From positions 186,001-250,000 of the forward strand of contig NZ_BMKK01000006.1 of NCBI RefSeq assembly GCF_014644295.1: 64,000 nt of DNA. The letters run 5' to 3'. The stretch comes from Emticicia aquatilis. Its GTDB lineage: Bacteria; Bacteroidota; Bacteroidia; Cytophagales; Spirosomataceae. The notes beneath the pieces were generated by a model. That model worked only from the letters and a program-made list of their open reading frames with translations. It did not search any database and was not told the DNA's origin. Made by a program: the position numbers and the translations under genes. Shown here piece by piece: positions 35,186 to 51,786 of the stretch (its first letter is position 1; each line of letters starts with the position of its first letter).

Positions 35186-37318
35186 ATGAGAATAATTCTA
35201 ACCCTTATCTTCATTTCAAACTTAGTTTTTGCCCAAGTTGGCAAAGAAAAAGTATTAGTAACAGACCTCACCCGAATCAAACAAATTGGCTCTATCAACA
35301 TCGCTCCCGATGGAAAAAAAGCCATTTACTCGCTCCGAACTTCCGAACCAAGCGAGGAAAACAAGCTCGAATATGAGTATCGTACCCATTTGTTTTTAAC
35401 AGATTTTCAGACAGTTAGACAGCTTACTCGTGGAGTTGAAAGTGTAAATAATGGTGTTTGGTCACCTGATAGTAAACAAATTGCATTTGCAAGATATACG
35501 AAAGGTAAATCTCAGATTTTTGTTATGCCGCTTGATGGTGGCGAAGCATTTCAGCTAACTGATTCAAAATATGGTGCTTCAAATCCGAACTGGTCGAAAG
35601 ATGGTTCAAAAATCTCATTTAGCGTGGGGCTTTCTCTGACCGAACTTTTGAAAGATTCTGTCCTGAATCCATCGAAAGGCGTTCCTGTGTGGTCTTTAGA
35701 AAAGCCTGGTTTTGCAAAAAATGAGTTTTTAAAACCCGCCAAAGGCGTGAAACCAAATCCCGATGGTACAATCGAAGAAATTAGAGCGTATTTAGAGAAA
35801 GACGTCGAAGATAAAAAAGCGAAAGTCATCAATCGTCTTACTTTTCAAGGTGAAGCTACTACTCAACCAGAGTTGAATTTCTCGCATATCTACACAATCG
35901 AAGTGAAAGAAGGTGCAAAAGCCACGCCTCTTACTACGGGTTTCAGGAGTTATGGCGGTGGAGCATGGCTACAAGATGGACAAATTGCGGTACAAACGGC
36001 TCTTGACTCACTACTCCACCCAGACCGTGAACAAGATAATAGAGTTTTGGTAATGAACCCAGATGGCTCGAATCGTAAGACCATTTTAGGTGAAAAAGGA
36101 AAATCGTTTGGCGGAGTAACGTGGTCGCCTGACGGAAAAAGCATTGTTTACACAAAATCTAACTCGCAAGGTGTAAATATTGGCGAATTATATATTGCCA
36201 AAGCCGATGGGTCGAATCCACAATTAATTAAGTTTGACCGTTCGGCGAGTGGACTAACGTGGTCGAAAGACATGAAATATGTTTATTTTACAGCACAATC
36301 AAACGGTGGACAGCCTATTTATAGAATTGATGTTGCAAGTAAAAAAGTGGAGCAGCTAACTGATTTTGATTCGGGAATTTTAGGTTTTGATTTATCGGCC
36401 GATAAAATCCTTTATTCAAAAACTGAAGTTGCCAATCCAAACGAGCTTTATGTAGCCGATTTGCAGATGAAAAATCCTGTAAAATTGACTTCGGTAAATG
36501 ATTGGGTAAAAAACAAAGCATTGAGTTTTCCAGAAAAACGAATCTATACCAACTCAAAAGGCCAGAAAGTAGAATATTGGATAATGAAGCCAACTAATTT
36601 AGAAGCGGGCAAGAAATATCCACTTTTATTGAATATGCACGGCGGTCCAACTGCCATGTGGGGACCAGGCGAGTTTTCGATGTGGCATGAGCATCAGTAC
36701 TTTTGTTCACAAGGCTACGGCGTGGTTTATGCCAATCCACGTGGTTCGGGCGGTTACGGTTTAGACTTTATGCGTGCTAATATCAAAGATTGGGGAACTG
36801 GGCCAACGGAAGACGTTCTCGCTGCCGCAACTGATGCCGCCAAGGCTTCGTGGGTGGATACTTCTCGTCAAGTTATCACTGGTGGCTCTTATGCGGGCTA
36901 TCTGACCGCTTGGATTGTTGCTCACGACCACCGTTTTAAAGCAGCTTTTGCTCAGCGTGGCGTGTATGACCTTACGACATTTTTAGGCGAAGGAAACGCA
37001 TGGCGTTTGATTCCGAGTTATTTCAATTATCCTTGGAATGATATACAAGAAAAAGTCTTAGAGACCAATTCTCCTTATACATTCGTTGACAAAATTCGTA
37101 CGCCATTGCTCATCAAACACGGCGAAAATGACCTTCGCACGGGCGTAATTCAGAGCGAAATGATGTATAAATCAATGAAAATAATGGGCAAAGAAGTAGA
37201 ATATGTAAGAATGCCAGGAGGCACGCACGAACTTTCACGCACAGGAAATGTTCGTCAAAGAATCGACCGAATGCTACGCATTTATGAATTTTTTGAGAGA
37301 TTTGTTGGAAAGAAGTAA
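35186..37318 (+). CDS. S9-family prolyl-oligopeptidase-type peptidase (DPP/ACP-like), secreted
   Basis: 710 residues with a Sec signal peptide (MRIILTLIFISNLVFA-QV). N-terminal WD40-like TolB-type propeller blades: VWSPDSKQIAFARY, NWSKDGSKISFSVG, TWSPDGKSIVYTKS, TWSKDMKYVYFTAQ. The C-terminal alpha/beta-hydrolase has LLNMHGGPTAMWGPG (oxyanion HGGP), the nucleophile Ser in ITGGSYAGYLTAW, Asp in KHGENDLRTGV and His in PGGTHELSRTG. It is likely a periplasmic dipeptidyl- or acylaminoacyl-peptidase in peptide use. Confidence 0.9.
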   Translation: MRIILTLIFISNLVFAQVGKEKVLVTDLTRIKQIGSINIAPDGKKAIYSLRTSEPSEENKLEYEYRTHLFLTDFQTVRQLTRGVESVNNGVWSPDSKQIAFARYTKGKSQIFVMPLDGGEAFQLTDSKYGASNPNWSKDGSKISFSVGLSLTELLKDSVLNPSKGVPVWSLEKPGFAKNEFLKPAKGVKPNPDGTIEEIRAYLEKDVEDKKAKVINRLTFQGEATTQPELNFSHIYTIEVKEGAKATPLTTGFRSYGGGAWLQDGQIAVQTALDSLLHPDREQDNRVLVMNPDGSNRKTILGEKGKSFGGVTWSPDGKSIVYTKSNSQGVNIGELYIAKADGSNPQLIKFDRSASGLTWSKDMKYVYFTAQSNGGQPIYRIDVASKKVEQLTDFDSGILGFDLSADKILYSKTEVANPNELYVADLQMKNPVKLTSVNDWVKNKALSFPEKRIYTNSKGQKVEYWIMKPTNLEAGKKYPLLLNMHGGPTAMWGPGEFSMWHEHQYFCSQGYGVVYANPRGSGGYGLDFMRANIKDWGTGPTEDVLAAATDAAKASWVDTSRQVITGGSYAGYLTAWIVAHDHRFKAAFAQRGVYDLTTFLGEGNAWRLIPSYFNYPWNDIQEKVLETNSPYTFVDKIRTPLLIKHGENDLRTGVIQSEMMYKSMKIMGKEVEYVRMPGGTHELSRTGNVRQRIDRMLRIYEFFERFVGKK

Positions 37319-37327
37319 CTCTCTTTT

Positions 37328-37391
37328 GTTCCCTTCGACTACGCTCAGGGAACGAGCCACAAAAAAAGCCGAGGCAAAACCTCGGCTTTTT
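37328..37391. terminator. Two hairpins between convergent S9 peptidase and DUF2911 genes
   Basis: First, GTTCCCT / AGGGAAC (37328-37334 and 37347-37353) around TCGACTACGCTC. Second, a classic terminator AAAAAGCCGAGG-CAAAA-CCTCGGCTTTTT (37363-37391) with tracts on both sides, so it can serve both genes. Confidence 0.85.
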
Positions 37392-37412
37392 ATTACTACA
37401 CTTACCTAAACC

Positions 37413-37898
37413 CTAAAACTCCATAGGTACGCTCACACTCGTCGTATCCCAGGAAATGGTTAAAGTCTTGTCGTCAGTAGTGATTGTTAGTTTCTCTACT
37501 ACGTCTTTTAATGTCTTTACAGGAACCGTAACTTCGGCTACGTTTTTATCTTTAATTTTATCGTATCCATAAGCTCCCCATTGTTTTAATTCGCTATTCA
37601 AGATGATAGTCCATTCTTTTTCGCCTAATTTAGAGAATAAAGAATAAGTACCTGCTTTCACAGATTTACCACCAAATTTTACATCTTTTTTGAAAGTGAT
37701 TTCGGTTGCTTCATTAGCTCCAGTACGCCATACTGTTCCGAATTTTTCTAATCCACCAAAAACCACACGGCCTTTTTTAGAAGGTTGACCGTAAGAAACT
37801 TTTACATTTGCACTTTCAGCAGAAACTCTTGGGCTTTGTGCAAAAGTTAATGTGCTAATTGTGAGCAATAAAGAGAAAAAGAATAATACTTTTTTCAT
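37413..37898 (-). CDS. DUF2911-domain secreted protein
   Basis: 161 residues, Sec signal peptide (MKKVLFFFSLLLTISTLTFA-QS). The DUF2911 body is clear: SANVKVSYGQPSKKGRVVFG, FGTVWRTGANEATEITFKKD, VKAGTYSLFSKLGEKEWTII. All-beta fold, function unknown; common in Bacteroidota. The C-terminus ends TTSVSVPMEF. Stand-alone, convergent with the S9 peptidase. Confidence 0.88.
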   Translation of the reverse strand: MKKVLFFFSLLLTISTLTFAQSPRVSAESANVKVSYGQPSKKGRVVFGGLEKFGTVWRTGANEATEITFKKDVKFGGKSVKAGTYSLFSKLGEKEWTIILNSELKQWGAYGYDKIKDKNVAEVTVPVKTLKDVVEKLTITTDDKTLTISWDTTSVSVPMEF

Positions 37899-37993
37899 AA
37901 AAATAATATAAGATTGAAAATGTTGATTTAATACTATAAACGCTAAACTTTAGATTTTAGTTTGAAGCAATTGCAATATTTCTATTCAACGGC

Positions 37994-38731
37994 TTACTCT
38001 TTTACTTTTTCGGCAAAAAGCTTGGCCATTTCTCGTGGGTTGGTTGGCTCTGGATTTACTTTATCCGACTCCAACAAACCATCACGCAAACGAATGATTC
38101 GGTGCGAATATTTGGCAATGTCTTCTTCGTGCGTAACCATTACGATGGTATTTCCTTTGGAATAAAGTTGGTCGAATAACTCCATGATTTCATAAGAAGT
38201 ACGAGTATCTAAGTTACCCGTTGGTTCATCGGCCAATAGAATACTTGGGTCATTCACTAACGCACGGGCAATGGCTACACGTTGACGCTGCCCACCCGAA
38301 AGTTCGTTTGGTTTATGATGGGCTCTATTATCAAGACCCACATTTTTGAGGGCAAGCATGGCTTTTTCTGTTCTCTGCGATTTGGTGTATCCCGCATAAA
38401 TTAAAGGCAAAGCCACATTTTCGAGGGCTGATTGACGAGGAAGCAAGTTAAATGTCTGAAAAACGAAACCAATTTCTTTATTTCGGACTTCAGCCAGTTC
38501 ATTTTCGCTCATGCGACTTACATCATTGTTGTTCAAAACGTAGCGTCCGCCCGTTGGGGAGTCCAAACAACCAATAATGTTCATCAATGTAGATTTACCC
38601 GACCCAGAAGGCCCCATAAATGCTACATATTCACCTTTATCGACCGAAATCGTAACCGATTTTAAGGCGTCAATAATTTCGCTACCCATGATGTAGCGTT
38701 TTGAAATATTGGTTGTTTCGATAATTTTCAT
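37994..38731 (-). CDS. ABC transporter ATP-binding protein, LolD/MacB type
   Basis: About 245 residues from ATG 38731 ([20 protein letters not shown]). The longer frame to 38797 would translate an 8-bp repeat in the leader and was rejected. Walker [12 protein letters not shown]-loop [10 protein letters not shown], signature [15 protein letters not shown], Walker [14 protein letters not shown]-loop [10 protein letters not shown]. LolD/FtsE/MacB-type ATPases drive lipoprotein release or efflux with an FtsX-like permease; no such permease adjoins it here. The upstream neighbour is a large membrane-TPR protein. Confidence 0.9.
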
Positions 38732-38744
38732 GAGAAGAAATGTT

Positions 38745-38786
38745 GAATGAGTGAATGAGTGAATGAGCGAATAACTTTCACTCATT
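38745..38786. repeat. Tandem 8-bp repeat (GAATGAGT) with an inverted end
   Basis: GAATGAGT, GAATGAGT, GAATGAGC, GAATAACT in tandem (38745-38776), then TTCACTCATT (38777-38786), which pairs with AATGAGTGAA. It lies in the leader of the ABC ATPase gene, 14 bp before its ATG, between it and the TPR gene stop. Confidence 0.7.
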
Positions 38787-38814
38787 TTACTATTCAATAT
38801 CCAAAGATATTATT

Positions 38815-41397
38815 CTATTCAAAACCATCCTTTGTTTTTTCCATCAATGCTTTTTGGGCTTGATAGATGGAAAGAAATGCTTGATAATCGGCAGGGCTAC
38901 TTAGCTGTTGTACTTTTGCCAAACCATCAGCTACGTAGTCGGTCAAGCCAATTCTGAGCGATTGTAGTGTGTATAACTTCCAAATTTCGGCGGAAGTATC
39001 GTTTAATTCGGCTGCTCGGAAAACGAAATTATAGGCATCGTTGGGCTTTTTGAGTGTATTGTTATAAAAATCAGCGACTTTACTCAAAACATAAGGATTT
39101 AGTGGATTTTCCTGCAAAACCTTATCAAAGTCAGCTTTTTTAGTTAAAGCAGTTTTAAATAATTCCTCCGCTTTAGCTTTTTGAAAATCGGCAATTGTTT
39201 GTTGATAATTTTGTTTTTGCAAAACTTCTACTGACGAAACATCTCCAGCTTTACTGAGAAGTTCTACCGCTTTATCATACACGCCTTGTTGCAAAAACCA
39301 CATTCCAGCTACTTGATTATATAAAGGTTTGTGTTTGGTCGAATCATTAGCCAAAACCGCCAGTTGTTTCAATCCTTCAAGTTTATTTTCACTGAAATAA
39401 TTTCGACAAGAAATAGCAAATTCTAAATCTTCAAAGAAATCGTTGTTTACTTCCTTTCGCTGAATATTCTGCAAATCTTTGCTTGAATACGGAAACATGG
39501 TATTATTAAATGAAGACAAATTATAAAGCAATGCAAATTGACTTACGTTAATGGCAGAATCTTTTGTTAATTCGATATTTGTCGTTGCCTGCACCAGTAA
39601 AATTTTATCGGCAGCAGCCCTATTTGCACGAAGACTCATGCTTTTTGTTGCTCGATTATCTCCTCCGAGTTTTGGATTTGATGCCTTTAATGATTTGTAA
39701 AGAGAATCTTTTTCTCCATATTTTAATTGATAAGCTAACAAATTAGATTCCGCCAAATCGCAGTCAGAGCAGTTAGTTTTTGCCAGATTCAGATAATAAA
39801 AAGTTGAATCAAGCACTTTTGTTTTTTCGTAGAGATACGCAATGTTGGTCAAAAGTTGTTGGTTCTGCGGGAATTTACTCACGCCTTCACGCAACGTAAA
39901 AAGAGCATCAAAAAACATATCTTTTTCCTGCAAAACCTTACTCAAACCCGCATACGCAAACGGACTGGCATTTTTTTCTAAAGCATTTTTCAGAAATAAG
40001 CCTGTATTTTCTTTATCGCCATTTTTTAGAGCCAACGACGCCAACGCATAATTTGATTTATGGTTACGAATATCAAAATGCAATGCTTCTTTGTAAAATG
40101 TCTCAGCGGCCTGAAAATCTTCGGTGGCTGTATAATAATCGGCAATGGCATTATAGTAGCCAGCTTTGGTTTGGAAGTAATTATTATAATTTTTGAACGA
40201 AATCAGCATGAAAACCAAAATTGCCGCCGCCATTCTAAAAAGTAGCAATTCATAAAACTTTGGTTTGTAAATCACTTTATGCACTTCCAAACCTTTTTGA
40301 AGTGGTTGCGTAAAGTTTATCAATACATAAAAGAAAAAGCAAAGCCCCATCGCTACATGAGCATACGAGATAAAATCCTCGAAAGCTTCAATGAGTGGGT
40401 CGTTGGCGGTTGCGTAAGCGTAGCCAATTGTAGCGGTGGTGATAATGGCCAAACCCAAATAAAACCACGAGCCAATGCTACGAAAATCAAAGAAATTCGA
40501 TTGCTCAGAATAATCTCTGAAACCCCAAATTCCTAAAATCATAGAAATGCCAAAAAGAGCTACGGGATTTATTGAAATCATATTCCAATCGATATACTGC
40601 GATTTTTCGAGGTAAATTAAAAGAACATTGAGCAAATAAATACTCGAAATTGCCAAGAACGAAGGAATATGATTGCGATTTTTCACGCCAGAATTTGATA
40701 CCACCCAAACCAAACTTGCCGAGATTTCGTGAGCAACCAATAAGATAAAAATTGTTGATAGAATAATTGCTGAAAGCAATCCATAAGAAAAAACTGCCAA
40801 ACTTGGATTGGCTGCTTTTGCCGTAAAACCAATCAAGGCAGCGGCTGCTACACTCAAAACAAGAAAAGCTAAGAATCTTTTCAGGGCATTGATTTGAGGA
40901 GCAAATGTGTTGAAGTAAAAAGCCAAACCGGCAAACGCACCAAAAGCCACCAAAAATGGCAGCTGATTGACCGAGTTAAAGACAATTTCGAGATGAAAGG
41001 TTATCAGAATACCTGCCAGTAGAACCATTCCACCCAAAAACCAATAACGACTCATACCCGAAAAAGCACTTAATAGCAAATTCAGACCTAAGATAAACAA
41101 TACCGCAAAAGCATGATTTGCCCAAAGGTTAATATCCATCATCGAAGCGAGATAACGCTCTTTAACAATATAAGCATTTCCGTTAATGGTAAACTTTAAT
41201 TGGCCATCCGAGAAAGTATCCAAAACGGCAGGAATTTCGTCAAGCTCGCTCAGAATATCCCAATGAATGACATTTTCTAATCCTTTAAACCAATAAAAAG
41301 AAAGTAATAGAATTGAGGTGAAAAGTATCGTAAGAATAAAAACAAAGCTAAATCGTTCATTTTTAGGCCAGTTTCGCCAAAAAAAGAGTTTTTGCAT
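38815..41397 (-). CDS. Large membrane protein with C-terminal TPR-like domain
   Basis: 860 residues. About ten hydrophobic segments are spread over the first ~410 residues (for example FSFVFILTILFTSILLLSFY, HAFAVLFILGLNLLLSAFSG and MISINPVALFGISMILGIWG). The C-terminal half (~425-860) is helical with TPR-like units: YYTATEDFQAAETFYKEALH, ASLALKNGDKENTGLFLKNA, and YNQVAGMWFLQQGVYDKAVE. I do not recognise the family. The downstream LolD-like ATPase gene starts after a repeat, so the two may be an operon with an atypical partner for the ATPase. Confidence 0.7.
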   Translation of the reverse strand: MQKLFFWRNWPKNERFSFVFILTILFTSILLLSFYWFKGLENVIHWDILSELDEIPAVLDTFSDGQLKFTINGNAYIVKERYLASMMDINLWANHAFAVLFILGLNLLLSAFSGMSRYWFLGGMVLLAGILITFHLEIVFNSVNQLPFLVAFGAFAGLAFYFNTFAPQINALKRFLAFLVLSVAAAALIGFTAKAANPSLAVFSYGLLSAIILSTIFILLVAHEISASLVWVVSNSGVKNRNHIPSFLAISSIYLLNVLLIYLEKSQYIDWNMISINPVALFGISMILGIWGFRDYSEQSNFFDFRSIGSWFYLGLAIITTATIGYAYATANDPLIEAFEDFISYAHVAMGLCFFFYVLINFTQPLQKGLEVHKVIYKPKFYELLLFRMAAAILVFMLISFKNYNNYFQTKAGYYNAIADYYTATEDFQAAETFYKEALHFDIRNHKSNYALASLALKNGDKENTGLFLKNALEKNASPFAYAGLSKVLQEKDMFFDALFTLREGVSKFPQNQQLLTNIAYLYEKTKVLDSTFYYLNLAKTNCSDCDLAESNLLAYQLKYGEKDSLYKSLKASNPKLGGDNRATKSMSLRANRAAADKILLVQATTNIELTKDSAINVSQFALLYNLSSFNNTMFPYSSKDLQNIQRKEVNNDFFEDLEFAISCRNYFSENKLEGLKQLAVLANDSTKHKPLYNQVAGMWFLQQGVYDKAVELLSKAGDVSSVEVLQKQNYQQTIADFQKAKAEELFKTALTKKADFDKVLQENPLNPYVLSKVADFYNNTLKKPNDAYNFVFRAAELNDTSAEIWKLYTLQSLRIGLTDYVADGLAKVQQLSSPADYQAFLSIYQAQKALMEKTKDGFE

Positions 41398-41412
41398 AAT
41401 TATATCAAGAGT

Positions 41413-41428
41413 TTTTCCACGTGAAACA
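41413..41428. promoter_or_regulatory. parS-like ParB binding site
   Basis: TTTTCCACGTGAAACA matches the chromosomal parS consensus TGTTnCACGTGAAACA at 15 of 16 positions (G2 is T). It lies in the divergent gap between the membrane-TPR gene and psd, 6 bp from a perfect DnaA box. In bacteria parS clusters near oriC, so this window may lie in the origin-proximal part of the chromosome. Confidence 0.6.
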
Positions 41429-41433
41429 CCAAC

Positions 41434-41442
41434 TTATCCACA
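41434..41442 (+). promoter_or_regulatory. DnaA box TTATCCACA
   Basis: Exact match to the strong DnaA box. Only one copy is present here, so it is not an origin by itself, but its closeness to the parS-like site is noted. A single chance copy also occurs inside manC (49849-49857). Confidence 0.45.
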
Positions 41443-41503
41443 GCTTTTGCACACGCATTATAAATATTTGAGCCGTGAAGATAACGTAAAAACATTGTTT
41501 GAT

Positions 41504-41511
41504 TATATTTG
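41504..41511 (+). promoter_or_regulatory. Bacteroidota -7 box (TATATTTG) for psd
   Basis: Exact TAnnTTTG match 30 bp before the psd ATG. Confidence 0.6.
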
Positions 41512-41540
41512 CGGTTCTAAAAAACTAAACAGCTCAGAAA

Positions 41541-42200
41541 ATGACACTTCATAAGGAAGGCACAGGAACGATTTCATTGACAATTATTGGACTATTGGCA
41601 GCTAATGCGGCTTTAAGATATTTTTTACCCGAACAAGAAATTTTACACACATTGTTGCTCGTCGTGAGCTTATTCCTGTTTGTGATTGTGGTTCAATTCT
41701 TTCGCAAACCAACTCGCACCACTGTTAAAAATCCCAAACACGTGATAGCTCCTGCTGATGGCAAAGTTGTGGTAATTGAAGAAGTTGTAGAAACTGAATA
41801 CTTCAAAGGCCCACGTCGCCAGATTTCGATTTTCATGTCGCCACTCAATGTGCATATCAACTTTAACCCGATTGCTGGAATTGTTACTTACGCCAAATAT
41901 CACGCTGGTAAATACTTGGTTGCTTGGCACCCAAAATCAAGCACCGAAAACGAACGCACGACAATCGTCGTGAAACACCACAACGGCACAGAGGTTTTGT
42001 TCCGCCAAATTGCTGGGGCTTTGGCTCGTAGAATTTGCTGGTACGTGAAAGAAGGACAAGCCGTGGAGCAAGGTTCGGAATTTGGTTTTATCAAATTTGG
42101 TTCAAGAATTGACATTTTCTTGCCATTAGATGCAAAAATCTTAGTCAATATCGATGATAAACCAGTTGGTGGTGAAACAGTAATTGCAGAATTAATGTAA
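41541..42200 (+). CDS. psd: Phosphatidylserine decarboxylase (short, archaeal-type)
   Basis: Turns phosphatidylserine into phosphatidylethanolamine. 219 residues with N-terminal membrane helices (about 10-55: TISLTIIGLLAANAALRYFL, LLLVVSLFLFVIVVQFF). The catalytic core has IAPADGKVVVIEEV, FMSPLNVHINFNPI and the self-cleavage site FGSR near the C-terminus (FIKFGSRIDIFLPLDAKI), where Ser becomes the pyruvoyl group, so the chain matures into beta and alpha subunits. It probably forms a unit with yraN 48 bp downstream. Confidence 0.93.
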   Translation: MTLHKEGTGTISLTIIGLLAANAALRYFLPEQEILHTLLLVVSLFLFVIVVQFFRKPTRTTVKNPKHVIAPADGKVVVIEEVVETEYFKGPRRQISIFMSPLNVHINFNPIAGIVTYAKYHAGKYLVAWHPKSSTENERTTIVVKHHNGTEVLFRQIAGALARRICWYVKEGQAVEQGSEFGFIKFGSRIDIFLPLDAKILVNIDDKPVGGETVIAELM

Positions 42201-42219
42201 GACATTTTACACTTTCTGA

Positions 42220-42240
42220 GGGCAAGTTAGAAACTTGCTC
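42220..42240. repeat. Hairpin between psd and yraN
   Basis: GGGCAAGT-TAGAA-ACTTGCTC, an 8-bp stem with one G-U pair, immediately before the yraN start (42248). No T-tract, so transcription into yraN can continue. Confidence 0.5.
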
Positions 42241-42247
42241 TACAACA

Positions 42248-42598
42248 ATGGCAGAACACAACGAAACGGGCAATAAGGCCGAAGCTATGGCGGCCAAATT
42301 CTTGGAAAAGAAAGGTTACGAGATTCTCGACCAAAACTACACGCATGGAAAAGGCGAAATAGATATTGTGGTTCTGAAAGATGGCTGGTTAGTTTTTGTA
42401 GAAGTTCGGGCGAGGTCAGAAGTTGCTCATGGCTTTCCCGAACAAACTATCTCGAAAAACAAAGCCAGTCTTATTATTAAAACTGCCGAAAACTACATTT
42501 ATGAGCATGATTGGCACGGAAACGTTCGTTTCGACATCATTGCTATAACCGTGGGCGAGAAATTTGAAATTATGCACTTTGAAGATGCGTTTTTCTAA
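42248..42598 (+). CDS. yraN: YraN/UPF0102 family nuclease-fold protein
   Basis: 116 residues, restriction-endonuclease-like fold. Signatures: GNKAEAMAAKFLEKKGYEIL, YTHGKGEIDIVVLKDGWLVF, VEVRARSEVAHGF, and the C-terminal VRFDIIAIT. The GEIDIVV...VEVR pattern matches the Asp/Glu nuclease core of the family; the biological role of UPF0102 is unknown. It follows psd closely and precedes the shared upstream element of the TonB receptor. Confidence 0.9.
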   Translation: MAEHNETGNKAEAMAAKFLEKKGYEILDQNYTHGKGEIDIVVLKDGWLVFVEVRARSEVAHGFPEQTISKNKASLIIKTAENYIYEHDWHGNVRFDIIAITVGEKFEIMHFEDAFF

Positions 42599-42628
42599 AT
42601 TTTGATTTATTTCACTCCATTATCTGCT

Positions 42629-42698
42629 AAGTTTATTCTTCAAAAACAGGCGTTTGTCTGAAAACGCTAATCTAAGGAGGTTTTCAAAAATAAATTTG
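42629..42698 (+). promoter_or_regulatory. Shared operator block plus -7 box (TAAATTTG), TonB receptor copy
   Basis: A block beginning AAGTTTATTCTTCAAAAACA at 42629 is nearly identical to that at 44919. The TAAATTTG box (42691-42698) follows the CAAAAACA point by exactly 50 bp. The same geometry occurs before the gene at 45040, so both may bind the same regulator, possibly the LytTR protein encoded at 47807. Confidence 0.7.
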
Positions 42699-42720
42699 TG
42701 TCATCAAAAAACACAAATCA

Positions 42721-44895
42721 ATGAAAAAGCTATTACCTCTCTTTTTATTCCAACTCTTATTACTTTCAACGCTTTTTGCCCAAACAACCATCAAAGGCAA
42801 AGTAACCGACCGCAAAGGAGAAGCCCTGCCGAGTGCCAATGTTTTCGTAAAAGGCAGCTACGATGGTGCAACCAGCGATTTAGATGGCAATTTCACGTTC
42901 AAAACTTCTCAGAAAGACACCGCAACGATTTCGGCAAGTTTTGTGGGCTACGAGCCTTTCGAGCAAAAAATAAAACTGGATAAACCAATCGTAGAAGTAA
43001 GCATCAAGTTAGAAGAAGCCATGAATGTGCTGAATACCGTCACGATTACGGCAGGAACTTTCGAGGCCTCAGATAGCAAAAAAATGGTTATGCTAAAACC
43101 GCTCGATATTGTAACAACCGCAGGTGGTGGAGCAGATATTACGGCCGTAATGCAGCTTTTGCCAGGTTCGCAACGAGTGGGCGAGCAAGAAGGGCTTTTT
43201 GTGCGTGGAGGTTCGGCCAGCGAAACAAAAACCGTGATTGATGGCATGATTGTGCAGAATCCGTTTTTTAGTAGTACGCCCGATGTGCCACAACGTGGAC
43301 GATTCACGCCTTTTATGTTTAAAGGAACCGCTTTTAGCACGGGTGGGTATTCGGCACAATATGGTCAGGCTCTTTCGTCGGTGCTTTTATTGCAAACCAA
43401 AGACAAAACCGATAATGCCAGCGGTTGGAATCTGAATGCCAATATGGCGGGTATCGGAGCAACTTACACGCATAAAGGCAGTGTTTCGGGGTCAGTTTAT
43501 TACAGCAATCTTTCTCCTTACTTCAATCTGATTCAGTCGAATATCATTTTTGATAAAATGCCGCAAGGTTTTAGCACTTCGCTAACGGTCAATGAAAATC
43601 TGACTAAAAATAGTTCGTTGAAAATCTACGGAACTTATACCGATAATCAATCTACGATTTTGTTTCCATCTTATGAGGAAGTTGGCACAAAGTATAGATT
43701 TGACCTGAAAAATCGCAATGTTTTCACGAATGGAAGCTATCAAGTAAATTTTGATGAAGGACGTTGGATTTTACAAACTGGACTTTCGTACAGCCATAAT
43801 ACTGATAAATTAACAATCGGAGGCAACGCAGGCGACCGCCTCGATGAGCGTACACAGGTGCGAGCAGTAATGACTCGCCTATTTGGAAGGAATAATGCCA
43901 GTTCGGTTCTGTTTGGCACAGAGTTTCACGCCATAAAAGTCGGAAATGTTTATAATCAGTATGATTTTAGGTTGAATGAAAATTATGGAACGGCTTTCGT
44001 AGAAACTGAACTCTACATCACACCAAAATTGGCAGGAAGATTTGGTTTACGAAGCGAATACACGAACGTGATAGATAAAGCCAATATTGCTCCTCGAATC
44101 TCTTTGGCCTACAAAACGGGTCAATATAGTCAAGTTTCTTTGGCGGCGGGGCAGTTTTATCAAACTCCAGAGAAAAACTATCTTTACCTCAATCAAAACT
44201 TAGATTTTGAGTTGGCTAATCACTTGATTCTGAATTATCAAATCATCAAAAACGACCGTACATTTCGAGTTGAGGCTTTTAGAAAAGATTATAAAGATTT
44301 AGTACGAGAATACACAACTTTCTACGACCCAAACCCATATCGTTTCCCGATTGGAAAAACCGATAATAGCGGGTTCGGCTACGCTCAAGGCTTCGATGGA
44401 TTTTTTCGAGACAAGAAAAGCATCAAAAATGGAGATTTTTGGTTCACTTATTCTTTCTTGGATACCAAACGCTTATTCAGAAATTATCAGCAAGAAGCTA
44501 CGCCAACTTTTGCTTCAAAACACAATTTTAGCGTGGTTTATAAACAATTTCTTGAAAAAATCAGCACAAACGTTGGTGTAACATTCACGCATACAAGCGG
44601 GCGACCAAACTATGATTTTGCTACCACGTCGTTTTTGCCAATTTATATGAAACCGTATCAAAACGTGAGCCTTTCGGCGAGTTATATAAAAGTGATTAAA
44701 GGCAATTTTGTGGTATTTTATGCGTCATTGGATAATATTTTTGCTCGAAAAAATGTGTTTGGCTACCGTTATTCGGCCGATGGCAAACAACGTTTTGAAG
44801 TAACTCCACCAGTTTACAGAACATTCTTTTTGGGAATTTCGATGAATCTTTCAAAACAACTCAGTAAACCAAAAGAAGCTGATTTAGAAAATTGA
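42721..44895 (+). CDS. TonB-dependent outer-membrane receptor with CarboxypepD_reg-like N-terminus
   Basis: 724 residues with a Sec signal peptide (MKKLLPLFLFQLLLLSTLFA-QT). A CarboxypepD_reg-like domain comes first (TTIKGKVTDRKGEALPSANV, FVKGSYDGATSDLDGNFTF), then a plug (GLFVRGGSASETKTVIDGMI, TGGYSAQYGQALSSVLLLQT) and a 22-strand-type barrel to the C-terminal FLGISMNLS. No SusD gene follows, so it is not a full Sus pair; the substrate could be a peptide, metal chelate or cofactor. It is the first gene of the receptor-TPR-kinase-regulator cluster. Confidence 0.88.
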   Translation: MKKLLPLFLFQLLLLSTLFAQTTIKGKVTDRKGEALPSANVFVKGSYDGATSDLDGNFTFKTSQKDTATISASFVGYEPFEQKIKLDKPIVEVSIKLEEAMNVLNTVTITAGTFEASDSKKMVMLKPLDIVTTAGGGADITAVMQLLPGSQRVGEQEGLFVRGGSASETKTVIDGMIVQNPFFSSTPDVPQRGRFTPFMFKGTAFSTGGYSAQYGQALSSVLLLQTKDKTDNASGWNLNANMAGIGATYTHKGSVSGSVYYSNLSPYFNLIQSNIIFDKMPQGFSTSLTVNENLTKNSSLKIYGTYTDNQSTILFPSYEEVGTKYRFDLKNRNVFTNGSYQVNFDEGRWILQTGLSYSHNTDKLTIGGNAGDRLDERTQVRAVMTRLFGRNNASSVLFGTEFHAIKVGNVYNQYDFRLNENYGTAFVETELYITPKLAGRFGLRSEYTNVIDKANIAPRISLAYKTGQYSQVSLAAGQFYQTPEKNYLYLNQNLDFELANHLILNYQIIKNDRTFRVEAFRKDYKDLVREYTTFYDPNPYRFPIGKTDNSGFGYAQGFDGFFRDKKSIKNGDFWFTYSFLDTKRLFRNYQQEATPTFASKHNFSVVYKQFLEKISTNVGVTFTHTSGRPNYDFATTSFLPIYMKPYQNVSLSASYIKVIKGNFVVFYASLDNIFARKNVFGYRYSADGKQRFEVTPPVYRTFFLGISMNLSKQLSKPKEADLEN

Positions 44896-44918
44896 TAGTT
44901 TTCACTCTTCCAAAAACG

Positions 44919-44988
44919 AAGTTTACTCCTCAAAAACAAGCATTCGTCAGAAATCAGTATTTCAGCAATAAAAGTCCACATAACTTTG
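44919..44988 (+). promoter_or_regulatory. Shared operator block plus -7 box (TAACTTTG), TPR-like gene copy
   Basis: AAGTTTACTCCTCAAAAACA at 44919 pairs with the block at 42629 (most positions identical over about 40 bp). TAACTTTG (44981-44988) lies exactly 50 bp after the CAAAAACA start. A further CAAAAAC at 44911, 20 bp upstream, gives a tandem-like arrangement. It shows that the true start of the next gene is ATG 45040, not the TTG at 44986 inside this box. Confidence 0.7.
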
Positions 44989-45039
44989 AGTCAACAAATC
45001 AGAAAAGCTATTTTTTTAACATTCAAACAATCAATCAAA

Positions 45040-45678
45040 ATGAAACGTATCTTATTTGTAATCAGCCTATTAACATTGGTAATTACCGAAACTTTTGCTC
45101 AAAACCCTGCCTACATTTCAGCAATGGAAAAAGCTGTCGGTTTGCTCAGCGAATTTGAAAACACTGAGAATAACAAGCAAGCCGTTAGCCAATTAGAACG
45201 CATCGCTGCTGCCGAACCCAAAGAATGGTTGCCAAATTATTGGGCGGCTTATGGCTTAGTAAACTTAAATTATGCCGAAACCGATGCCGATAAAAAAGAC
45301 ATCATTTTAGAAAAAGCCGAAAAATTTGCCGCAGCAGCCGAAAAGCTTCAACCCAACAACGACGAAATAGAAGTGCTTAAAGCCTACATTGCCAGTGCAA
45401 GAATGGCGGTTTCGCCACAAGACCGTTGGCAAAAATATGGTGGAATCGTAGGAACGGCTTTACAAAACGCAGCTAAGTTAAACCCTGAAAATCCAAGAGC
45501 GGCTTTATTGGCAGGACAAGGCGTCTTTTATACTCCAGAAGCTTTTGGTGGTGGAAAGAAAAAATCAGAGCCGATTTTACAAGATGCCATCAATAAATTT
45601 GCGAAATTCAAACCCGCATCGAGCATTGCACCAAACTGGGGCGAAAGAGTTGCTAAATGGATGCTTTCTCAGATATAA
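45040..45678 (+). CDS. Secreted helical-repeat (TPR-like) protein
   Basis: 212 residues from ATG 45040 (MKRILFVISLLTLVITETFA-QN, signal peptide). The mature protein is all-helical with TPR-like spacing: YISAMEKAVGLLSEFENTEN, VSQLERIAAAEPKEWLPNYW, EKAEKFAAAAEKLQPNNDEI, GTALQNAAKLNPENPRAALL. No catalytic motif is visible. It is followed 2 bp later by the beta-helix/LytS kinase gene and shares an upstream element with the TonB receptor, so it probably belongs to the same envelope-sensing unit. Confidence 0.75.
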   Translation: MKRILFVISLLTLVITETFAQNPAYISAMEKAVGLLSEFENTENNKQAVSQLERIAAAEPKEWLPNYWAAYGLVNLNYAETDADKKDIILEKAEKFAAAAEKLQPNNDEIEVLKAYIASARMAVSPQDRWQKYGGIVGTALQNAAKLNPENPRAALLAGQGVFYTPEAFGGGKKKSEPILQDAINKFAKFKPASSIAPNWGERVAKWMLSQI

Positions 45679-45680
45679 AA

Positions 45681-47810
45681 ATGAACTCATTTGCAACACA
45701 CATTAAAGAAATCAACGTTGAAGGCATAAAAAACCTTCAACTGTTGACTTTCGCTGGTGACATCGAACTCATCGGAACAGAGGAAAATATCATAAAAATA
45801 GAAATTTTTGCCTCTGTCAGAAGTTGGATGACATTATTTCTGAATAGTGAAAGATTAGATTCGATTGATTCAGAAATTAACCCTGTAAGCATCGAAACAA
45901 TCGGTGAGACACTCCATATTCTCTCAAAACCCAATTATTTTCACCCATATAACTGGATTAATTTTCAGAAAACTTCTTTCCGAATTTCATTACCAAAGCA
46001 CATTTTGGCAAATACTAAGACTTACGGAGGAAATATTTACTTAAAAAATCTCGACTCCAATCATATTTTCACGACTTGGGGTGGAAAAATACTGATTAAC
46101 GACTCTAAAGGTATTTTTCGAGGTAAAACAATGGGAGGAAACTTAGAAATCAATAATTGCGATGCCAATATTGATGCTAAAACTTGGGGTGGAAAAGTGC
46201 TTTTATCTGAAAACGACGGCGATATGGTTGTAAAAACCCTCGGCGGGAATATTCAGATAAAAAACCAAAAAGGGAAAGTTCATGCCAGTACGTCGGGCGG
46301 GAATATTTTGGGCGAAGGATTGAAAGGAGAACTTCAATGCTCAACTTGGGGCGGAAACATAAAACTTTACGGTATCGAAGGCGATATTGGAGCAAACACC
46401 AAAGGCGGCAATATAGAGGCCGAAGTAAAAGCTGTCAATAAGTATATTTGGCTCGATACGGCAGGCGGAAATATCAGCGTAGCATTACCTCTGCAACAAT
46501 CGCTTGACTTAGATATTTCCAGCTCAAAAGTTACAGTCCCACTACTTTCAAATTTTGAGGGTTTTAAAACCCAAGACCAACTCGTAGGGAAACTCAATGG
46601 CGGTGGACCAAAAGTTTTGGTAAAAGGAACGGGTGGAAATATCAAAATTTTACCCGAATTACAAAAATTCGATAAGGTAAAAGATAGTTTTATCAAACGC
46701 CAAAGCCCAAGTATTGACACAAATTATGTGGCACTCAGCTTCGGCAACTTCATTTTGGGTTTATTTTTCTGTTTATTACTTACTTACGGCCTAAGTAGTA
46801 TTGTGTATTTTACGTTTCAGAATATCGACACGAAAATAAACCCTCAGAACGCTTTAACTAACATCGAAAAAATTGTTTTCCTATCAAATATTGCTAACGG
46901 ATTGAGTTCACACGGGGCTGTTACAACGTTTATTCAGTTATTGGATAAGAGAATTTACCAAAATTGGCTTAAATACCTTATTATCATTGCTTTTACGCTC
47001 ATTTTGATTGAATTTTCTCAGATTTTATTAGGTATTTTTTCATTGAGTTATGCCGATTTAGTTGCTTACAACCGAGATTTTAAAACTCCCGATGGCACAT
47101 TCAATGTAAATCGAATTTATTCGTTGATTCCGCTGATTGTCAGTTGTTCTTATTTCTATTACTGGCAACATACTCGACAAATCACACGAAAGATTTCGGA
47201 GCAGGAATATCAACTACTCAACCTCGAAAAACTCAAAACAACCGCCGAACTTGGGGCTTTGCAGGCACGTATAAATCCACATTTTTTATATAATTCACTC
47301 AACAGTATTGCAAGTTTGGTTCATTCCGACCCCGATAAGGCCGAAGAAATGACAATTTTATTATCGAAGTTTTTTAGATATACCACCGACCGTAACAACG
47401 AACATTTTTGTAGTGTCTCCGACGAACTTGAGGTAGTAAAAACCTATCTTTCAATCGAGCAAGTGCGTTTTGGTGACAGGCTAAAATTTTCAACCGAACT
47501 GGATAAAAGCCTTGAAGATTTTCAGATTCCGAGGTTTTTATTACAACCTTTGGTCGAAAATGCTATCAAACACGGTATAGCGAAGGTTTCGGGCGAAGGA
47601 AAAATTGAAGTAAAAATCTACCAAAAAGACGAATCAATTATTCTTTCGGTACATGATTCTGGAAAACCCTTTCCAGAAGAAATGGCTTCAGGCTACGGAC
47701 TCCGCAGTATCAACGAAAAACTCAGATTAATTTACGGCAAAAATGCTCATCTGGAAATTCAGAATGATAAAACATATAAGGCGGTAATAATTACGATAAA
47801 GAAAAAATGA
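45681..47810 (+). CDS. Fusion: beta-helix (DUF4097/GIN-like) extracytosolic domain plus LytS-type histidine kinase
   Basis: About 709 residues from ATG 45681 (MNSFATHIKEINVEGIKNLQ), 2 bp after the previous stop; ATG 45657 is an alternative. There is no classical signal peptide. The first ~330 residues hold at least eight G-G-N/K-I turns about 20 residues apart (TYGGNIYLKN, TWGGKILIND, TMGGNLEINN, TWGGKVLLSE, TLGGNIQIKN, TSGGNILGEG, TWGGNIKLYG, TKGGNIEAEV), a right-handed-helix or DUF4097-like repeat. Several membrane helices follow (about 355-490), then a LytS/YehU kinase: ARINPHFLYNSLNSIASLVH, PRFLLQPLVENAIKHGIA, GYGLRSINEKL. It should phosphorylate the regulator encoded next. Confidence 0.82.
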   Translation: MNSFATHIKEINVEGIKNLQLLTFAGDIELIGTEENIIKIEIFASVRSWMTLFLNSERLDSIDSEINPVSIETIGETLHILSKPNYFHPYNWINFQKTSFRISLPKHILANTKTYGGNIYLKNLDSNHIFTTWGGKILINDSKGIFRGKTMGGNLEINNCDANIDAKTWGGKVLLSENDGDMVVKTLGGNIQIKNQKGKVHASTSGGNILGEGLKGELQCSTWGGNIKLYGIEGDIGANTKGGNIEAEVKAVNKYIWLDTAGGNISVALPLQQSLDLDISSSKVTVPLLSNFEGFKTQDQLVGKLNGGGPKVLVKGTGGNIKILPELQKFDKVKDSFIKRQSPSIDTNYVALSFGNFILGLFFCLLLTYGLSSIVYFTFQNIDTKINPQNALTNIEKIVFLSNIANGLSSHGAVTTFIQLLDKRIYQNWLKYLIIIAFTLILIEFSQILLGIFSLSYADLVAYNRDFKTPDGTFNVNRIYSLIPLIVSCSYFYYWQHTRQITRKISEQEYQLLNLEKLKTTAELGALQARINPHFLYNSLNSIASLVHSDPDKAEEMTILLSKFFRYTTDRNNEHFCSVSDELEVVKTYLSIEQVRFGDRLKFSTELDKSLEDFQIPRFLLQPLVENAIKHGIAKVSGEGKIEVKIYQKDESIILSVHDSGKPFPEEMASGYGLRSINEKLRLIYGKNAHLEIQNDKTYKAVIITIKKK

Positions 47811-48559
47811 AAACTATACTCATCGACGACGAACCGCTGGCAATCGGACGGTTAAAAAGACTTTTGGGCAAATTTGAAGATTTTGAAATAATTGCCGAAG
47901 CAAAAAACGGACACGAAGGACTCGAAAAGATAACTTCTCTCAAACCCGATGTGATTTTTTTGGACATCGAAATGCCTGAAATGACTGGTTTTGAAATGCT
48001 TGCTCAGCTTGATTTTATGCCTTTAGTGGTTTTTGCAACTGCTTACGACCAATATGCCATTAGAGCGTTTGAAGAAAATTCGATTGATTATCTATTGAAA
48101 CCAATTGAAACTGAACGCTTAGAAAAGACCGTTGAAAAACTGCGTAAATTAAAGTCAAACACGAGCGATAGCTCCATGAATAATAGTCTTTTACAGTTAA
48201 TTGAGCAATTCAAGCCTAAGAAAGACATTCATTCAATTTCGGTGAAATCGGGCGAGAAGATTTTGTTTATTCCACTAACAGAAATCAGCTTTTTTGAAGC
48301 CGAAGACAAATACGTTTTCTTGAATACGACCGACGGAAAGCAATATTTGACCAATTATACAATAGCTTCATTGGAAGAAAAACTACCCGAAAATTTCACG
48401 AGAGTTAGTCGCTCATCAATTATTAACTCTCTGCTAATCAAAGAGTTGCAGAAATATTTTAGCGGAAAATATTTGGTAATTATGCGAGATACAAAAGCTT
48501 CAAAAATAGAAACTGGCTCAGCTTATGGAGAAAATTTGAAGAAGTTGATGGAGATTTAA
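47807..48559 (+). CDS. LytTR-family response regulator
   Basis: 250 residues. N-terminal receiver: MKTILIDDEPLAIGRLKRLL (DD pair), phospho-acceptor Asp in KPDVIFLDIEMPEMTG, conserved Thr/Ala in VVFATAYDQYAIRAF and Lys in IDYLLKPIETERL. The C-terminal LytTR DNA-binding domain starts near SISVKSGEKILFIPLTEISF and includes FTRVSRSSIINSLLIKELQK. It overlaps the kinase by an ATGA junction, so the pair is translationally coupled. LytTR proteins bind tandem direct repeats; the shared 50-bp-spaced operator blocks upstream of 42721 and 45040 are the best candidate targets. Confidence 0.93.
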   Translation: MKTILIDDEPLAIGRLKRLLGKFEDFEIIAEAKNGHEGLEKITSLKPDVIFLDIEMPEMTGFEMLAQLDFMPLVVFATAYDQYAIRAFEENSIDYLLKPIETERLEKTVEKLRKLKSNTSDSSMNNSLLQLIEQFKPKKDIHSISVKSGEKILFIPLTEISFFEAEDKYVFLNTTDGKQYLTNYTIASLEEKLPENFTRVSRSSIINSLLIKELQKYFSGKYLVIMRDTKASKIETGSAYGENLKKLMEI

Positions 48560-48644
48560 TTTAGACAAGAGATATTAGACAAAGGACAAGAGAAAAAAGT
48601 AAAAATAGTTTACTCTATCTCATGTCTTTTGTCTCTTGTCTAAA
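48560..48644. terminator. Bidirectional hairpin with 7-nt repeats after the LytTR gene
   Basis: Perfect 13-bp arms TTTAGACAAGAGA (48560-48572) and TCTCTTGTCTAAA (48632-48644). The left side shows heptamers AGACAAG, AGATATT, AGACAAA, GGACAAG. It separates the convergent LytTR and FrnE-like genes. Confidence 0.7.
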
Positions 48645-48652
48645 ATCTATAA

Positions 48653-49348
48653 TCAACAATTCTTCCCATCCACATCGCAAACCTCGCCAACAGCTTCAAC
48701 TGGTGGCATTTCGGCAGCAACTTTATTTAATGTATCCAAAAATACGCTCGTCGGTTGAGCTCCACTGATGGCGTATTTATTATTCAAGATGAAAAATGGT
48801 ACACCAGAAACACCTAAATTCTGAAAATGCTTGATTTCCTGCGTAACGTGATAAGTGATTTCTTCATTAGCCAAAATGCCTTCAGTTTTTTCACGATTCC
48901 AGCCAAAATCTTCCATGAAAGCAATGAGTTGCTCTTTCTCAGAAAAATCAATACCGTCTGTAAAATATGCTTTGAAGAACTTTTCTTCTAACTCAATTTG
49001 AGTTCCTTCTTCACGGGCAATGTGTAGCATTTTATGTAAAGGAATGGTATTGATGGCTTTAGGCATTTTATCAAAATCAAACTTGATGCCTGCTTGCTCG
49101 CCCACTCCTACCACACGCTGAAACATTGGCTCGATACGCTCTTTACTGCCAAACTTATTGAGGAAGTATTCTTCTTTATCAAGCCCTTCGGCTGGAATCG
49201 TTGGGTCAAGTTGGAAAGGATGCCAAGTAATCTCAACTGGCTGACTATCAAATCTTTCGAGGGCTTTTTCTAAATGTTTTTTTCCGATATAACACCACGG
49301 ACACGCCACATCAGATACTATATCTATTTGCAAAGGTTTGTTGCTCAT
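48653..49348 (-). CDS. FrnE-like DsbA-family oxidoreductase
   Basis: 231 residues without a signal peptide. The redox motif is CPWC in VSDVACPWCYIGKKHLE, followed by the helical insertion (about 40-165) typical of the FrnE/YwbO group, and the cis-Pro region GVSGVPFFILNNKYAISGAQ. It ends with a second Cys pair, VCDVDGKNC. It is probably a cytosolic thiol-disulfide isomerase or reductase; substrate unknown. Confidence 0.88.
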   Translation of the reverse strand: MSNKPLQIDIVSDVACPWCYIGKKHLEKALERFDSQPVEITWHPFQLDPTIPAEGLDKEEYFLNKFGSKERIEPMFQRVVGVGEQAGIKFDFDKMPKAINTIPLHKMLHIAREEGTQIELEEKFFKAYFTDGIDFSEKEQLIAFMEDFGWNREKTEGILANEEITYHVTQEIKHFQNLGVSGVPFFILNNKYAISGAQPTSVFLDTLNKVAAEMPPVEAVGEVCDVDGKNC

Positions 49349-49403
49349 TCTGTATAATTGTTTTTCAAATAAAACCTACGAAGCCAAAATTTGGTTCAAA
49401 AAA

Positions 49404-49427
49404 AGGGGTTCGATTAATCGAACCCCT
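49404..49427. terminator. Perfect 24-bp palindrome terminator before the FrnE-like gene
   Basis: AGGGGTTCGATT followed directly by its reverse complement AATCGAACCCCT, preceded by an A-tract on the plus strand (T-tract on the minus strand). It sits downstream of manC and probably ends its transcript. Confidence 0.75.
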
Positions 49428-49475
49428 CTATAAATATTTTGTAAACTCTTGACTAAAATCGTATTAGACGACTCT

Positions 49476-49503
49476 GTGGACTGTTGACCGCAAACTGTTG
49501 ACT
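49476..49503. repeat. Seven-nucleotide repeat array (GTGGACT/GTTGACC type)
   Basis: GTGGACT, GTTGACC, GCAAACT, GTTGACT in register, ending 2 bp before the manC stop (49505). Same family as 1574-1601. Confidence 0.65.
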
Positions 49504-49504
49504 A

Positions 49505-50572
49505 CTATACAAACTCTTTGCCTTTTGCACCAGCCGCTGCCACAAATTCTTTTACTTTTTGTTCGTCTTCTTTTTTGCAAATCATTAGTGCATTGTCAAA
49601 TTCTGCTACAATGTATCCATCCAAACCACTCACAACAACTAAGCGTTCTTTCGGCGTTTTTATGATGCTGTTTTTCGTATCATAGAGCATTACATTGGCA
49701 TCAATGGCATTTTCGTTTTCATCTTTATCGGATATTTCATAAAGCGATTTCCACGTACCCAAATCTGACCAGCCAATATCAGAAAGCACTACAAAAACAT
49801 TTTCGGCACGCTCCATAATACCGTTATCAATCGAAATGTTTTTGCATTGTGGATAAGCCCTATTCAATGCTTCGGCTTCTCTTTCGGTGTAATAATCAGC
49901 TTTAATTTCTTCAAAAGCTTCTGCCATTTCGGGTAAGAAGGCCTCAAAGCATTTCTTTATAGCATTCGCATTCCAAATAAAAATACCAGCGTTCCAAACA
50001 AACTCACCACTTTCTACAAATTTCTTTGCCCACTCTAAGTTTGGTTTTTCGGTAAAAGTAACTACACGCTTGATATCACCCTCTGACTCCGAAAACTGGA
50101 TATACCCATAACCAGTATCGGGACGGGTTGGATTTATACCAAGCGTAACTAATACATCATTTTTAGCTGAGAAGTGCAACGCAATGCTAATTCTTTTGCG
50201 GAATTCCTCTTCTTTCAAAATAATATGGTCAGCAGGAGCAACAACAATATTAGCATTCGGATTCTTCGACCCAATTTTATAACAAGCATACGCAATACAC
50301 GGAGCTGTGTTTCTACGGCTTGGTTCAAGTAAAATTTGGTCGTCACTTAAATACGGTAGTTGCTGCTTTGTTATATCATAATACTCTTTACTTGTAACAA
50401 TATATATATTTTCTTTAGGACAGATACCCTCGAAACGCTCTACCGTTTGTTGAATCATTGTTTTCCCAATACCCAGCACATCGTGAAATTGTTTTGGGTT
50501 TGTGCTTCGACTAAACGGCCAGAACCTTGTTCCGACACCTCCAGCCATAATAACTACGTAATTATCGTTCAT
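49505..50572 (-). CDS. manC: Mannose-1-phosphate guanylyltransferase
   Basis: 355 residues. Forms GDP-mannose from mannose-1-phosphate and GTP. Nucleotidyltransferase signatures: VIMAGGVGTRFWPFSRSTNP (GGxGTR), PKQF, then VAPADHIILKE, VTFTEKPNLEWAKKF, WNAGIFIWNANAIKK and SIDNGIMERAENVFVVLSDI. It lacks the cupin isomerase half of bifunctional ManC/AlgA enzymes, so it is single-function. GDP-mannose feeds glycan and GDP-fucose synthesis. Confidence 0.93.
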   Translation of the reverse strand: MNDNYVVIMAGGVGTRFWPFSRSTNPKQFHDVLGIGKTMIQQTVERFEGICPKENIYIVTSKEYYDITKQQLPYLSDDQILLEPSRRNTAPCIAYACYKIGSKNPNANIVVAPADHIILKEEEFRKRISIALHFSAKNDVLVTLGINPTRPDTGYGYIQFSESEGDIKRVVTFTEKPNLEWAKKFVESGEFVWNAGIFIWNANAIKKCFEAFLPEMAEAFEEIKADYYTEREAEALNRAYPQCKNISIDNGIMERAENVFVVLSDIGWSDLGTWKSLYEISDKDENENAIDANVMLYDTKNSIIKTPKERLVVVSGLDGYIVAEFDNALMICKKEDEQKVKEFVAAAGAKGKEFV

Positions 50573-50614
50573 TGATTAAAATGTATCTTTTACTGGCTTT
50601 TCGATACTTCTTTA

Positions 50615-51655: not shown

Positions 51656-51749
51656 TATATATGATTATTTTTTGTTAAAATTGTATGATTTTGATACAAA
51701 CTACTAATAGTATGCTTGCATATTATTATTTTCTTTTCTATGTTTGACA

Positions 51750-51757
51750 CAAAATTA
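51750..51757 (-). promoter_or_regulatory. Bacteroidota -7 box (TAATTTTG) for the DUF3089 gene
   Basis: Reads TAATTTTG on the minus strand, about 95 bp before the ATG, in the divergent gap with the large TonB receptor. Confidence 0.45.
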
Positions 51758-51786
51758 CGTTTTGTTAACCACTAACCAATATTCTC

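Follow-up and report, generated by a model that had tools for sequence, protein, structure and literature searches.

Twin three-repeat elements in a kinase–LytTR gene cluster of Emticicia aquatilis are probable operators of the cluster's own response regulator

Direct-repeat LytTR operators and the Emticicia cluster

LytTR regulators that act on direct repeats use operators with repeats of about 8-11 bp and spacers of 10-13 bp, as described in two papers (PMC4847170, PMC11347149). The operators of RcoM1 and CoxC contain three 8-bp direct repeats, TTCNNGCA / TTNNNGCN (PMC11347149). YpdA/YpdB (PyrS/PyrR) of E. coli has a LytTR response regulator, as does the cluster described here, and the work on YpdB recognizes a site A and a site B as repeats of GGCATTTCAT (PMC4847170). 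The fragment of the E. coli yhjX promoter that covers the bases footprinted with YpdB (PMC4847170) contains TTCATTCC, TTCATTCC, and TTCATGCC at exact 21-bp steps. In E. coli K-12 (locus L277, upstream of yhjX, minus strand) the third repeat, TTCATTCC, lies 21 bp upstream of the two recognized sites; the main text of the YpdB paper never uses the word 'third' (PMC4847170). The Toastrack/DUF4097 domain is described as adjoining two-component or LytTR proteins in Lia/PSP-like stress-signalling neighbourhoods (PMC11237479). Our literature search, which covered some papers in part, found none defining the operator of a Bacteroidota LytTR two-component system.

We analysed a 64,000-nucleotide stretch of the E. 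aquatilis genome, which we call the window. It contains, in order, a UPF0102 gene and genes for a TonB-dependent receptor, a TPR-like protein, a DUF4097/Toastrack histidine kinase, and a LytTR response regulator. The receptor (42721..44895, + strand, as for all features with coordinates in the cluster) is 724 aa long and has a CarboxypepD-regulatory-like domain, with a plug match slightly under the Pfam cut-off. The TPR-like gene (45040..45678) opens a second unit and encodes a 212-aa protein that is apparently secreted, having a signal-like N-terminus, and that had no match in Pfam or NCBIfam. It is overlapped by the kinase gene (45657..47810, with a possible alternative start at 45681), which is predicted to encode a PF06580 His_kinase-family protein (2.6e-28) with an N-terminal DUF4097/Toastrack domain, qualifying as a kinase partner. 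The response regulator (47807..48559), the presumed binder, contains a receiver domain (PF00072, 4.2e-21) and a LytTR domain (PF04397, 1.6e-21), the composition of a two-component LytTR protein. Inspection by eye also picked out, at 51787-55089 of the window, an ORF that resembles a TonB-dependent receptor and includes a long repetitive stretch rich in Ala, Gln, and Val.

LytS proper is defined by a LytS-type membrane sensor domain (5TMR). This domain was not found in the kinase at E 0.001, where PF06580, DUF4097, and HATPase_c alone were reported. The first-pass annotation of this DNA had spoken of a LytS/LytTR cluster, which is correct for the PF06580 kinase and the LytTR regulator and loose for the name LytS. 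The regulator reached 177.3 bits against the BtsR equivalog NCBIfam NF008677, below its curated cut-off of 246, and aligned to YpdB over 232 residues with 28% identity (E 6e-32). In the window, Toastrack forms the N-terminus of the kinase and the cluster also carries a TonB-dependent receptor; neither feature figures in the part of the source that describes the Lia/PSP-like neighbourhoods (PMC11237479).

Two blocks of common geometry in the window

The receptor gene and the TPR-like gene are each preceded by a block that includes a near-identical 20-mer, located at 42629 and 44919 as first reported. The CAAAAACA within it starts at 42641 and 44931, and the -7 boxes each begin 50 bp further on, so that the equal spacing claimed for the two sites is present. 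Their likeness had been put at about 40 bp and is longer than that: the blocks form a gapless alignment of 107 bp with 67 identities, which takes in a common TTTCACTC upstream and GTCWGAAA downstream. A tandem CAAAAAC does lie at 44911, but the pitch of the repeat is 21 bp rather than 20 bp.

All three half-sites of the element described below are present in both blocks. On the receptor side, R1 TTCACTCC at 42611..42618 was located with the matrix, backed by a comparison of R1 offsets at sites elsewhere, and R2 TTTATTCT at 42632..42639 and R3 TTTGTCTGAAA at 42653..42663 were located with both pattern and matrix. The -7 box TAAATTTG (42691..42698) begins 38 bp downstream of the first base of R3. 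On the side of the TPR-like gene, R1 TTCACTCT (44901..44908, matrix), R2 TTTACTCC (44922..44929, pattern and matrix), and R3 TTCGTCAGAAA (44943..44953, pattern and matrix) are followed by the -7 box TAACTTTG at 44981..44988, again 38 bp from the R3 start. TAnnTTTG is the -7 box of the Bacteroidota housekeeping promoter, and both window boxes match it in 8 of 8 letters. The spacers and the gap between R3 and the box, 53 columns in all, are 45% identical between the two blocks; the same columns are 25-49% identical between receptor-type and TPR-type sites across the genus.

In the 6.75-Mb genome, the 20-mer has exact matches at the two window places only; at up to three mismatches it has 28 matches versus 19 in the reversed control, numbers that are not far apart. 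The R2-R3 pattern TTYAYTCY-N13-TTYGTCWGAAA also matches exactly at the two window sites only and has a single 1-mismatch place (C3:428556). With up to three mismatches it gives 178 matches versus 115 in the reversed control, again not far apart, and a wider regulon in this genome is not supported at the level of exact matches to this pattern. A genome search for the block in front of TAnnTTTG boxes, proposed in the first-pass annotation, had a similar outcome: TTYGTCNGAAA-N27-TAnnTTTG matches exactly at the two window sites only, both of them in front of genes, with four 1-mismatch places and, at up to two mismatches, 90 matches versus 38 in the control. These patterns were modelled on the two window sites themselves and therefore tests elsewhere weigh more. 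When a matrix was trained without the own genus, the window sites scored 50.8 and 39.2 and were the top two places in the 64 kb; the next best place scored 4.3, and the maximum over 50 first-order Markov windows was 10.5. The likeness of the twin blocks is more than chance.

The element in related genomes

We aligned 46 sites, consisting of the two window sites, 26 picked by eye from matches with up to four mismatches, and 18 exact-core loci. In the selection by eye, 28 of 74 match rows from 32 scanned sequences were kept. The 46 dropped rows, among them a 1-mismatch match within the kinase gene of L095, were judged to lie inside genes or to be without promoter context. All matrix scores rest on this selection of 46 sites, and the sites from other genera were partly chosen by likeness to a pattern derived from the own genus, which keeps the tests from being fully independent.

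The aligned sites contain three same-facing half-sites 21 bp apart, with the consensus TTYAYYCC for R1, TTYACTCC for R2, and TTCGTCRGAAA for R3, two 13-bp spacers that each have an A/T-rich centre, and a TAnnTTTG box that begins 38 bp downstream of the R3 start. Between the end of R3, GAAA tail included, and the box lie 27 bp. Mean information is 0.67 bits for R1, 1.23 for R2, 1.47 for R3, and 1.33 for the -7 box, compared with about 0.27 for the spacers and 0.02 for the gap between R3 and the box. Other conserved single columns are an A located two bases ahead of R2, a T located 15 bp past the R3 start, and CA at 49-50. Over 13 genera, conservation falls in the half-sites, the A-tracts of the spacers, the -7 box, and these few isolated columns. 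We rejected CAAAAACA as a binding core; it is the A-tract in the second spacer, a stretch that across the 13 genera is A-rich and less conserved than R2 and R3.

R1 is the weakest half-site, with at least six of eight letters in 10 of the 29 exact-core sites. It played no role in finding these 29 sites, where -21 was the best of 53 upstream offsets for R1 (mean of 4.93 matches out of 8, versus 2.48 with an SD of 0.49 at other offsets). At its fixed column, the -7 box has at least seven of the eight letters of TAnnTTTG in all 46 aligned sites (8/8 in 28, 7/8 in 18). TTTG is exact in 43 of the 46, and the next best offset has 4. The Bacteroidota housekeeping promoter also has a -33 TTG element. 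A conserved -33 element was not found between R3 and the -7 box in the 46 sites, because this gap shows almost no conservation; it holds no more than a stretch rich in T, 15-18 bp past the R3 start, whose best column reaches 0.76 bit.

Repeats of 8 bp with 13-bp spacers fit the layout of direct-repeat LytTR operators. The YpdB half-site TTCATTCC resembles the TTYACTCC found here, both systems have direct repeats with a 21-bp pitch, and the yhjX fragment shares the third repeat with the window-type element. YpdB is a distant relative of the window regulator, and therefore the shared half-site could partly be coincidence; its target, a transporter gene, lies at another place in the genome, whereas the window elements are local to the cluster. 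RcoM1 and CoxC operators likewise have three same-facing half-sites about two helical turns apart. However, these regulators are one-component CO sensors from Proteobacteria, CoxC represses, and the ends of their half-sites differ from those in the window. No TTCNNGCA or TTNNNGCN half-site occurs in the consensus of R2 (TTYACTCC) or R3 (TTCGTCRG).

A stricter R2-R3 core pattern, drawn from the first loci and fitting only the TPR-side site of the window, was run on 222 genomes of the family. It gave 29 exact matches in 26 genomes from 9 genera and none in the reversed control. By comparison of positions, 24 of the 29 share a contig with the kinase-LytTR pair and are within 10 kb of it. Of the 222 genomes, 148 have a kinase match at 1e-70, and all 26 with the exact core belong to these. 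In the own genus, five of six genomes with such a kinase match have the exact core and none of the five without it does. In g33 and g21, two genera that were unexamined when the pattern was made, 12 of 12 matches lie within 10 kb of the pair. Five exact cores are away from the pair and may reflect either trans regulation or chance: those of G121 and G152 each stand in front of another homolog of the receptor, on a contig other than that of the pair, and those of G158, G164, and G168 stand in front of other genes. Genus g8 had no exact core in 48 genomes, and many kinase-bearing genomes were likewise without one. At the level of the order, the strict core was found in 2 of 291 genomes, both inside the family.

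With matrices that excluded the genus of each locus, the top score was at least 24 in 36 of 40 loci, compared with a highest reversed-sequence score of 8.1. The 40 loci were hand-chosen, leaving out L263, L264, and L267, which have an exact core and no cluster homologs. A search with the single kinase sequence against named relatives confirmed no locus, and an alignment query for the kinase gave 80 loci, the majority matched over the kinase core only. For three further sets of loci (L064-L066, Dyadobacter, and L186) the matrix did not leave out the locus's own genus. There was no convincing element at the paralogous pairs L064-L066 (best scores 7.4 to 10.9, controls up to 4.3). Three Dyadobacter loci (L184, L185, L188) keep the spacing from R3 to the box with the upstream half-sites out of register, and they score only 8.8 to 14.1. 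In Splendidivirga corallicola (L186), two weaker elements at 5815 and 6854 score 34.7 and 28.1 (control -1.4) and keep the R2-R3-box spacing. They precede two small genes, lipoprotein-like by eye, and a related kinase-regulator pair.

The order of receptor, TPR-like, kinase, and regulator genes recurs in several genera, and the element regularly precedes the receptor gene where a receptor is present. In four members of the genus, the receptor and TPR genes are 4 to 6 kb apart with the element at both promoters. The TPR gene has an element in eight clusters (the window, G001, G004, G006, G007, L109, L110, and L265), and in all eight the gap between receptor and TPR genes is at least 132 bp. Ten clusters have the element at the receptor only, two of them weakly (L107, 13.5; L274, 8.2). 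Seven of these have gaps of 20 to 95 bp (L101, L102, L107, L108, L262, L268, L274), the exceptions being L092 (158 bp), L097 (302 bp), and L271 (1123 bp). L091 and L096 score below zero, and their contigs end within the receptor gene. In L059, L095, and L103-L106, receptor and TPR genes were not found by the kinase and the element precedes the kinase gene. In L093, L094, and L098-L100, it precedes a short gene overlapping the kinase start, and no adjoining receptor or TPR genes were found. In L265 (G152:C32) the receptor-TPR pair is on a contig other than that of the kinase-regulator pair and has twin elements; this arrangement away from the kinase suggests that the receptor-TPR pair of G152 is regulated in trans.

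Several additional features were seen at these loci. L103 has a distant receptor-like match about 7 kb upstream, and several g33 loci have the element followed by another small gene. In L059 (G003, own genus) no receptor was found by the kinase and the TPR gene match is to the last 34 residues only. The N-terminus of the kinase is Toastrack/DUF4097 in the window (45657-47810) and consists of Pfam pentapeptide repeats in two Dyadobacter species (L184, 7644-9089; L188, 7290-8738), where a kinase and a LytTR protein of similar kind lie downstream. A gene for a divergent HTH-like regulator (MNRIDRLMAIVTTLQS...) adjoins the TPR promoter in G001 (L060), G004 (L061), G006 (L063), and G007 (L148).

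Regulation by the LytTR protein

In the first-pass annotation, the LytTR protein was proposed as the binder of the block, with the receptor and the rest of its own operon under its control. Our comparative evidence supports this. Even where genes have been rearranged or the receptor and TPR genes are absent, and in different genera, the element is still found close to the kinase-LytTR pair, and its half-sites share letters and pitch with the E. coli YpdB sites in yhjX. The element resembles the repeats of yhjX and of RcoM1/CoxC, and the regulator aligns to YpdB, which is why we expect the element to work like a LytTR operator. Both blocks are very probably operators of the LytTR regulator whose gene lies some 3 to 5 kb further downstream, activating both units, and we strongly infer that the cluster's own LytTR protein is the binder. 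The layout of the element and its conservation are observed, whereas activation rather than repression, dependence on phosphorylation, and the place where transcription starts are points that we infer. Activation would be expected because the element lies just behind a promoter that has no -33 element. Molecules of the phosphorylated regulator would be arrayed along a single face of the DNA, the 21-bp pitch being two helical turns, and the molecule bound at R3 would lie immediately behind RNA polymerase, where it would substitute for a weak -33 contact. The receptor gene and the TPR-like-kinase-regulator operon would then be switched on together in a positive feedback loop.

The LytTR protein could instead bind the blocks and repress both units, with release upon kinase activity. 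There is a precedent in CoxC, a LytTR regulator with triple direct repeats that acts as a repressor (PMC11347149). However, the CoxC operator overlaps the -35 box, and the same source, where it deals with LytTR regulators generally, says that most bind upstream of that box and activate. In the family studied here, the position of R3, 27 bp short of the -7 box with no conserved -33 element, suits an activator, leaving repression improbable. Less probable still is that another DNA-binding protein uses the blocks and that the LytTR pair is a co-regulated passenger. The HTH regulator genes beside the TPR promoter in four genomes would offer such a protein, but no such gene is among the ORFs of at least 80 aa listed at 36000-54000 of the window, the element remains near the kinase-LytTR pair where the rest of the neighbourhood is altered or lacking, and half-site and pitch match a LytTR operator. 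The near-identical 20-mer could in principle stem from recent duplication, or belong to a dispersed repeat that plays no part in regulation, but we consider this very improbable, given just two exact copies in the genome, an identity outside the half-sites that lies within the range of the genus and lends no support to recent duplication, and conservation over 13 genera that picks out half-sites, A-tracts, and box.

Activation of both units by the cluster's LytTR protein, our preferred reading, also permits a broader and more tentative proposal. Three phased half-sites, rather than two, might be the functional unit of a wide range of LytTR response regulators that includes E. coli YpdB. In this family, operator, regulator, and -7 box could form a fixed cassette with an exchanged sensor (Toastrack in Emticicia, pentapeptide repeats in Dyadobacter), the protein bound at R3 replacing the -33 element at an exact spacing.

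The comparison suggests that the E. coli YpdB promoter holds an unremarked third repeat inside the footprinted fragment. What may interest specialists is that the geometry is fixed, that there is a third half-site, and that the sensor part is exchanged while the regulator and the promoter end are kept. For the family, the finding is an exact candidate operator with fixed promoter spacing in several genera, whose predicted regulon would be largely the cluster itself.
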